A DNA stretch of 64,000 bases from Salvelinus alpinus. Taxonomy: Eukaryota; Chordata; Actinopteri; Salmoniformes; Salmonidae. The notes under the pieces are model-generated. The model was not told the origin of the DNA. It saw nothing but the letters and a program-made list of their open reading frames with translations, and searched no databases. The translations under genes were made by a program, and so were the position numbers. Of the stretch, positions 39,487 through 58,907 are shown one piece after another (the stretch's first letter is position 1; every line of letters begins with the position of its first letter). Location: contig NC_092115.1 of the NCBI RefSeq assembly GCF_045679555.1, positions 37,921,728-37,985,727 on the forward strand. The letters are read 5' to 3'.

Positions 39487-42400
39487 TCAGTTGGTGCTTC
39501 CATCACAAAGGTATTTGACCCGCCTCTGCAGTTCATCGATTAATTTCTTCTTAGCTTTCTCCCGGCTGGCTTGCCACTCTTCAGAAGGACAGAGAGAACA
39601 GCCAATCAGAAAATAGCCTGAGAGCGAGAGTGTGTGTGTCCCCTACAGGGAACCAGTATGAAAATATATGCATTTACTACTGTAAGTCACTCTGGATAAG
39701 AGCGTCTGCTAAATCACTGAAAGGTAAATGTGTGTGTCAGAAGCCTACCTTTGTAGGAGCAGATGAGAGGGGCAGAGAAGGTGACTTTTGTCCCAAACTT
39801 GTCATTAGTGTCCTCAAATCCGGGTTTCTCCAGACCACTCTTCGTAAACCACTCATCTAGAACGTTCCTCACCGAGGCTGTGGAGTCTGTGGAGGGATTC
39901 ACAATATCAACACTAGTATATGTGTGTGTGTGTGTGTATGTGTGTGTGTGTGTGTGTGTGTGTGTGTGTGTGTGTGTGTGTCTGTGTGTGTGTGTGTGTG
40001 TGTGTGTGGTACTGACCCATCTCATCCTCCCCAAGTAGGCCCAGTAAGCGCTGGCTTAGTTGGGCTCTGGTAGCTTTCTTACTGTCCTGTCCTTCAGTCT
40101 CCATGCTGTACCTGCCAATCCCATCACAATCATGCACCACCATCAGGCAGTTACTACTACTCACTACAAACAAGTCCATTATATAATTGTGTGGTAAAGA
40201 GAGAGTTCACTCAAAATACACATTTTCAACATATCAAAAAAACACTGAGGGACTATTCATTCAACTTTAAATTCATTGATATTTAGAAATTAACTTTATA
40301 TAGATTGTTATCAGTCTTTACCCCGAGAACCTAAGCTGGGCGGAGATTCTGTACTGAGTTTCTGAAAGGGCGGAGTTCGCAGATGTAAGGGCTGTCCCCT
40401 TCAACAGAGTGCTGAGCCTTCCCTTCGCATCCTCAGTGCTGCTGGGTGGACCACAGTAGCCAATGAAAGTAGCAAGACAAGACAGCGCCCTCTGGGAGGC
40501 CGACTGACATGCTGCAGCCTCACTGGAACCTGTCAATCAAATCTGCCTTTAGCAATGTGATACAGTTCATTCAGTACATTCATTTACTAACATTATCCTG
40601 CACTACGCTCTCATACAGTGCAATCGGAAATTATTCAGACCCCTTGATTTTGTCCCACCTTGTTACGTTACAGCCTTATTCTAAAATGGATTGAATCGTT
40701 TTTTTCCCTCATCAATCTACACACAAAACCCCATAATGACAAAGCAAAAACAGGTTTTTAGAAATGTTTGAAAATGTATATATAAAAAAAAGAAGGAAAT
40801 ATCACATTTACATAAGTATTCAGAACCTTTACTCAGTACTTTAAAGCACCTTTTCCAGCGATTACAGCCTTGAGTCTTCTTGGGTATGACGCTACAAGCT
40901 TGGCCCACCTGTATTTGGGGACTTTCTCCCATTCTTGTCTGCAGATCCTCTCAAGCTCTGTCAGGTTGGATGGGGAGCGTCACTGCACAGCTATTTCCAC
41001 GTTTCTCCAGAGATGTTCGATCGGGTTCAAATCTGGGCTCTGGCTGGGCCACTTAAGGACATACAGAGACTTGTACAGAAGCCACTCCTGTGTTGTCTTG
41101 GCTGTCTGCTTAGGGTCGTTGTCCTGTTGGAAGGTGAACCTTCGCCTCAGTCTGATGTCCTGAGCTCTCTGGAGAAGGTTTTCATCAAGGATCTCTCTGT
41201 ACTTTGCTCCGTTTATCTTTCCCTCGATCCTGACTGGTCTCCCAGTCCCTGCCGCTGAAAAACATCCCCACAGCATGATGCATCCACCTCCATGCTTCAC
41301 CAAAGGGATGATGCCAGGTTTCCTCCAGACATGACGCTTGGCATTCAGGACAAAGTTTTCAATCTTGGTTTCATCAGACCAGAGAATCTTGTTTCTCATG
41401 GTCTGAGAGTCCTTTAGGTGCCTTTTGGCAAACTCCAAGCGGGCTGCCATGTGCCTTTTACTGAGGAGTGGCTTCCATCTGGCCACTCTACCATAAAGGT
41501 CTGATTGGTGGTGCTGCAGAGATGGTTGTCCTTCTGGAAGGTTCTCCCATCTCCACAGAGGAACTCTGGAGCTCTGTCAGAGTGACCATCGGGTTCTTGG
41601 TCACTTCCCTGACCAAGGCCCTTCTCCCCCGATTGCTCAGTTTGGCCGGGCAGCCAGCTCAAGGAAGAGTCTTGATGGTTCCAAACTTCTGCCATTTAAG
41701 AATTATGGAGTCCACTGTGTTCTTGGGGACCTTCAATGCTGCAGTCATTTTTTGGTACCCTTCCCCAGATCTTTGCCACGACACAATACGGTCTCGGAGC
41801 TCTACGGACAATTCCTTCGACCTCATGACCTGGTTTTTGCTCTGACATGCAAAACTGTGGGACCTTATATAGACAGGTGTTCCAAATCATGTCCAATCAA
41901 TTGATTTTAGCACAGGTGGACTACAATCAAGTTGTAGAAACATCTCAAGGATGATCAATGGAAACAGGATGCACCTGAGCTCAATTTCGAGTGTCATAGC
42001 AAAGGGTCTGAATACTTATGTAAATAAGGTATTCCTGTTTTTTATTTTTAATAAATTAGCAAACATTTCTAAAAGCCTGTTTTAGCTTCGTCATTATGGG
42101 GTATTGTGTGGAGATTGAGGATTTATTTTATTTATTATCCTTTTTAGAATAAGGCTGTAACGTAACAAAATGTTGGAAAAGGGGAAGGGGTCTGAATACT
42201 TTCCGAATGCACGGTATATGATAAATACATCAATTTCAACTAATCATGGCCTTATATACCCTTTCCACGGTAAGTGAAGACACAGGTGATGTCTTTGAGA
42301 TTGCAGCAGAACCTTCCCTTCTCTGGTTCTGCTACTTCCTCCACAGGCAACGGGAACGACCGCTGCAGGAAAAAAGCCTTTACCATCGCTGTGGACTTAC

Positions 42401-58907: not shown

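Follow-up and report, generated by a model that had tools for sequence, protein, structure and literature searches.

An alternating dsRBD array joined to a DUF4559/HEPN-type module in ray-finned fishes, a likely antiviral RNA defence protein

What kind of protein joins a HEPN-type module, predicted to cut RNA, to a long series of double-stranded RNA-binding domains (dsRBDs), and what would it do in a fish? The question is raised by a 64,000-nucleotide stretch of Salvelinus alpinus DNA (the window), in which a first-pass annotation had read such a gene (here gene A) and had taken its architecture to be undescribed in vertebrates. That claim did not hold. The text of Anantharaman et al. (2013; PMC3710099), which defines the CXorf38 HEPN family with its inserted zinc ribbon and calls it active, already reports fusions of the family to dsRBDs in vertebrates, cephalochordates and hemichordates, and databases list orthologues of gene A under the names 'si:ch211-91p5.3' or 'DRBM domain-containing protein'. 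The fusion is thus known; the alternating split units, the unit count, the turnover of a repeated module and the paralogy to CXorf38 are not mentioned in the text of that paper, the figures or supplements of which may show some of them. A literature search on the gene name found no paper, and the terms HEPN, RNase and interferon are absent from the main text of a paper on human CXorf38 (PMC12196990).

Gene structure

Gene A occupies the minus strand from 58907 to 39487 and comprises 21 exons in phase (Table 1). All 20 introns have a GT donor and an AG acceptor, the sole stop is the terminal TGA, and the model is 98.6% identical to the annotated S. alpinus protein P0001 (17 of 1211 aligned residues differ, and the alignment has a gap of 6 residues), which argues against a chance or false join; P0002, the annotated isoform 2 of the S. 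alpinus gene, starts at M118. The 21-exon, phase-consistent gene first proposed therefore stands, with a correction to its length of 1215 residues: with the acceptor of exon 19 placed at 40111 from the orthologue alignment, the predicted protein has 1217. The phase at the exon end is 0 for exons 1-5, 2 for exon 18 and 1 for all other internal exons; most dsRBD exons are consequently symmetric, and their duplication would keep the reading frame. Sequence, conservation and predicted secondary structure agree with the domain order read in the first pass, namely a DUF4559/HEPN-type module, a coiled coil and then nine dsRBD-type units in one chain.

Table 1. Exons of gene A, with window positions and the parts of the predicted protein that they encode.
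Feature	Position	Strand	Content
Exon 1	58698..58907	-	aa 1-70: start codon, first long helix of the DUF4559/HEPN module, cysteines C55 and C59
Exon 2	48954..49088	-	aa 71-115: C75 and C78; W-E-V-A-K helix with candidate active-site acid E112
Exon 3	48721..48849	-	aa 116-158: predicted HEPN helices; contains M118
Exon 4	48498..48650	-	aa 159-209: R163-N164-x-x-M167-H168 motif and next helix
Exon 5	48240..48425	-	aa 210-271: linker, start of coiled coil
Exon 6	47646..47802	-	aa 272-324: coiled coil; end of DUF4559
Exons 7 (46883-46776) and 8 (46451-46242)	46242..46883	-	dsRBD unit U1, aa 334-399
Exon 9	45940..46074	-	U2, aa 409-476 (starts in exon 8): dsRBD-like, without helix 1 and Lys pair
Exons 10 (45836-45693) and 11 (45539-44991)	44991..45836	-	Complete dsRBD U3, aa 477-548; helix-strand half of U4, aa 556-582; long linker
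Exon 12	44686..44829	-	Split unit U4, second half (strands and helix), aa 707-748
Exons 13 (44585-44448) and 14 (44289-44077)	44077..44585	-	Complete dsRBD U5, aa 755-825; helix-strand half U6a, aa 838-863
Exon 15	43715..43864	-	Linker from U6a to U6b
Exon 16	42620..42832	-	U6b, aa 919-988, conserved Lys pair
Exons 17 (42406-42260) and 18 (40529-40322)	40322..42406	-	dsRBD-type unit U7, aa 993-1065
Exon 19	40017..40111	-	Remainder of U8, aa 1073-1139 (starts in exon 18)
Exons 20 (39886-39749) and 21 (39578-39487)	39487..39886	-	C-terminal U9, aa 1144-1214, and stop codon

Just upstream of the acceptor region of exon 15 (43872-43815), a diverged second copy of that region was seen by eye at ~44052-43990 (-), perhaps the relic of a duplicated exon.

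The DUF4559/HEPN-type module

A Pfam scan of gene A, a check that the first pass had advised, matched DUF4559/CXorf38 (PF15112) at residues 6-319 with 287.8 bits against a cut-off of 27 (E 1.5e-85), covering nearly the full model (1-301 of 305). The R163/N164/H168 motif pointed out at the same time is present as RNQVMH, and its R, N, M and H are invariant in 48/48 rows of an alignment (A2) of 48 of the 70 retrieved relatives of gene A. The candidate acid E112 is kept in 46/46 aligned rows, as are C59, C75 and C78 (C55 in 45/46); these four conserved cysteines correspond to a putative zinc ribbon within the helical domain. The regular expression RNxx[MLI]H matched 79 of 93 fetched proteins; among the other 14, P0028 was matched at the wrong place (its RNCVMH is visible in the alignment) and 13 gave no match. 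HEPN_Swt1 matched over the DUF4559 region in 5 of 11 proteins scanned, every one below the Pfam cut-off (E-values of 0.015 for gene A, 5.2e-4 for P0074, 2.2e-3 for P0008, 0.02 for P0059 and 0.12 for P0080), and matches of other HEPN families in P0074 and P0077 were also all below it.

Predicted structures do not contradict the HEPN reading. In the relative P0074 (mean pLDDT 87.7), the motif (R164-H169) ends the helix at 154-168 and precedes the helix at 177-194, and the invariant acid (E114) falls within helix 112-119; the RN..MH motif is at a helix end in predicted P0008 too. With the helices of P0074 and P0008 numbered by us, the positions of motif and acid in P0074 are those given for HEPN in the text of PMC3710099, in which an R-x4-6-H motif is at the end of helix 3. 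From sequence and model we infer that the module of gene A would have a HEPN fold and would be catalytic.

The dsRBD array

Up to nine dsRBD-like units had been counted, and the count was right: five complete units (U1, U3, U5, U7 and U9) alternate with a second series of four (U2, U4, U6 and U8), two of them interrupted by linkers. Pfam dsrm (PF00035) supports the proposed dsRBDs for the protein as a whole (66.9 bits against a cut-off of 23, E 2.4e-18; three stretches pass individually) but not for most of nine isolated pieces, among which U3 (33.3 bits) and U5 (24.6 bits) passed the cut-off of 23, U1 (19.1 bits) was below it, and U2, U4b, U6b, U7, U8 and U9 gave no dsrm match.

Relationships among the units were recovered by profile-profile comparison of pieces cut from alignment A2. 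The five complete units are mutually related at 85-100% probability, and in the second series U2, U4b and U6b are related at 97.7-99.5% and U4a, U6a and U8 at 95.4-99.1%. Both series meet mainly in U6b (92% with U3 and U5; 88% with U8), with weak cross-series links between U2 and U1, U3 and U5 (only 1-1.5%), for U4b (2.3-5.1%) and between U8 and U7 (5.4%); the dsRBD nature of U2 and U4b is drawn from the link to U6b, from U7 (69-75%) and from predicted structure. Controls (the coiled coil, the HEPN part and two linkers) reached at most 4.4% with any unit, and the coiled coil reached 28.5% with the HEPN part.

The structure predicted for the Esox orthologue P0008 (mean pLDDT 76.5; pTM 0.38, at which the relative placement of units is unreliable) has the helix-strand-helix order expected of dsRBDs, in keeping with the first-pass reading. 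Helix-strand(s)-helix is seen in U1, U3, U5, U6b, U7, U8 and U9, and U4 has the order helix-strand-helix across ~94 low-confidence residues, a disordered linker; U2 is without helix 1, and U6a is an additional helix-strand half. Three strands are listed separately only in U1 and U4, since DSSP merges them elsewhere. The basic pair with which helix 2 of dsRBDs begins and contacts RNA is kept as Lys/Arg in 69-100% of rows in U1, U3, U5, U6 and U8 (69-77% in U1) and is lost in U2, U4, U7 and U9. Against solved chains, a profile of the array (A3) matched the dsRBDs of DRB4, DRB2 and R2D2 at <1e-3 and PKR at 0.011. On these sequence grounds, the array would be expected to bind dsRNA.

Distribution and turnover of the array

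The same fusion was found when other fishes were searched for it: 68 of the 70 retrieved relatives (isoforms counted, public annotation) carry both Pfam domains, among them proteins of bichir, sturgeon, gar and bowfin, and all retrieved proteins with a gene A-type array are from ray-finned fishes. The si:ch211-91p5.3/DRBM proteins of these fishes are orthologues by sequence (Esox P0008 has 66% identity over the full length); they are annotated as uncharacterised, and the copy number of their middle module varies by species.

A unit tree was built from the five complete units of 11 of the 48 rows of A2 (55 sequences and 74 columns; the program cautions that columns are few and that the U7 and U9 branches are long). 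Across bichir to salmonids, U1, U7 and U9 each trace to a single origin, a result recovered in 100% of 200 bootstrap trees. Sequences of U3 intermingle with those of U5, and the two pair as closest relatives within Ictalurus, Electrophorus and Cirrhinus. Judged from this tree, the outer units are old, and the mixing of U3 and U5 within species indicates that the middle module is repeatedly duplicated or homogenised. Scanning 93 proteins and gene A with unit profiles, the labels of which are not independent because the profiles come from the same alignment, gave the common pattern HEPN-A-s-(M-h-s)n-M-h-t-Y-w-Z, where M is U3/U5. Gene A has two M units, Polypterus P0059 three, the eels P0017 and P0019 four, and Gadus P0018 six. 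Y and Z are missing in 11 models of spiny-rayed or cod-like fishes (P0013-P0016, P0018, P0020, P0023, P0029, P0043, P0052 and P0057) and likewise in several shorter models, by loss or by annotation, both of which are possible; in P0074-P0077 the scan matched not one array unit.

Relationship to CXorf38

A short CXorf38-type gene (gene B) lies on the same strand at C30:37987854-37990630, ~2.1-4.9 kb (2127-4903) past the right end of the window and ~7-10 kb upstream of gene A. Matches covered five exon pieces of this gene, one of which contains RNELMH, and the 30 kb fetched past the window gave no dsRBD match. With gene A it shares DUF4559 and RN..MH, as does short CXorf38, a protein of ~320 residues in the shark and mammals retrieved. 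A tree of 31 N-terminal sequences unites gene B with shark and three mammals (97/94) and places gene A together with 22 fish sequences (83/96), of which five carry annotations as short proteins; after dropping long-branch P0086, P0070 and fish P0077, the split has support of 96/90 and is present in 100% of 200 bootstrap trees. By its position in the tree, gene B is the fish orthologue of CXorf38. Gene A is outside the CXorf38 clade, and the CXorf38-like character first ascribed to its N-terminal third is therefore correct as to family, but as that of a paralogue rather than an orthologue. Orthology of gene A itself to CXorf38 was ruled out because it does not group with mammalian and shark CXorf38.

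A second copy of gene A, at C23:18145400-18150400, is interrupted by frame breaks or stops in exons 1, 4, 9, 11 and 20, and the search recovered none of exons 12-17. It is a pseudogene and presumably the homeologue of gene A; that gene A was kept open while this twin decayed is mild evidence for function.

The predicted protein P0069 (Acipenser ruthenus) combines MED14 with a CXorf38-like segment and with sequence resembling gene A, and is probably a fused gene prediction that reveals the order of neighbours.

Proposed function

According to its text, PMC3710099 suggests that CXorf38-family fusions act on dsRNA, for example viral replication intermediates, and reports NACHT and DEATH fusions of the family in cephalochordates and cnidarians; among the proteins fetched here, amphioxus P0093 is a family member fused to NACHT and LRR. 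Gene A has in common with the fusions of that source the family, the putative zinc ribbon in the HEPN-type module and the dsRBD-type units. We consider it probable that gene A encodes a dsRNA-directed HEPN endoribonuclease of cell-autonomous innate defence, for which a role against viral RNA is likely. The array would bind long dsRNA, either viral replication intermediates or self or transposon dsRNA, mainly via the five Lys-pair units U1, U3, U5, U6 and U8, and U2, U4, U7 and U9 would serve in array packing or in protein contacts. Where one duplex is occupied by several chains, their coiled coils and HEPN domains could be brought together, and the paired HEPN domains would cut RNA, independently of metal, via R163, N164, H168 and probably E112. 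Such cleavage would leave 2',3'-cyclic phosphate ends, like characterised HEPN RNases, for which the text of PMC3710099 gives cyclic-phosphate ends. Changes in the number of middle dsRBD modules may tune reach or avidity. Dimerisation on RNA and the immune role are parts of this scheme that we infer.

An alternative interpretation, which we regard as unlikely, is that the protein is a non-catalytic RNA-binding scaffold or sensor, in which HEPN acts in dimerisation or in recognising RNA, with the array delivering dsRNA to other machinery, as R2D2/TARBP do with Dicer. Degenerate dsRBDs often bind proteins, and among solved chains, plant DRB proteins and R2D2 match the array best in sequence. Some HEPN families are also listed as inactive in the text of PMC3710099, but the invariance of the motif (48/48) and of E112 (46/46) goes beyond the need of a purely structural role. 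It seems to us quite improbable that the same biochemistry is aimed at self or transposon dsRNA (in the germ line, for example) and not at viruses: lineage-specific array turnover fits any arms race, and gene A does lie among transposon relics, which says little in such a genome, but the amphioxus NACHT-LRR fusion points to pathogen sensing in that relative. That the HEPN and dsRBD parts belong to two genes, wrongly merged through exons compatible in phase, we find hardly credible, even with an intron phase that shifts from 0 to 1 at their boundary and with P0074-P0077 annotated without the array, because both domains stand in one chain in 68/70 publicly annotated proteins (isoforms counted).

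The favoured dsRNA-directed endoribonuclease invites comparison with the OAS-RNase L pathway, in which RNase L is a HEPN-type (KEN) RNase tied to dsRNA sensing. RNase L senses 2-5A via ankyrin repeats and has a kinase-like domain, whereas gene A would sense dsRNA directly, and neither ankyrin repeats nor a (pseudo)kinase is in its Pfam list at E up to 1. Teleosts are not known to have OAS. We raise tentatively, as a possibility, that a single-chain, self-contained dsRNA-activated ribonuclease performs alone in ray-finned fishes the task that the OAS-RNase L pair has in mammals, that its middle module was enlarged again and again in an arms race against RNA viruses, and that it is an old CXorf38 duplicate lost in tetrapods. 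Cyanobacterial HEPN-RNase III-dsRBD proteins, described in the text of PMC3710099, share HEPN and dsRBD with gene A, but are bacterial and have an RNase III domain. If the ribonuclease reading is true, farmed and wild fishes would have a direct dsRNA-to-cleavage effector that is now filed as 'uncharacterized', and the invariant motif makes the RNase idea easily testable. The alternating array with its module turnover would also be a natural series for how dsRBD number sets dsRNA recognition.

Genomic surroundings

Intron 17 of gene A holds a transposase relic with DDE_3 and HTH_Tnp_Tc3_2 (window 40983-41576, -), and UnaL2 LINE 3' elements are at 271, 39669 (last intron of gene A) and 51528 (intron 1). 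LINE-type reverse transcriptase/endonuclease fragments lie at 4760-5599 (-), 8504-10234 (+) and 33681-34421 (+). An open frame at 25200-25541 (+), which by eye resembles a piece of a cytokine receptor, had no Pfam match at 0.001. A retroelement integrase, Gypsy-type by eye and carrying zinc-binding, rve and chromo domains, is at 18234-19598 (-) and falls in a local G+C peak of 0.57.
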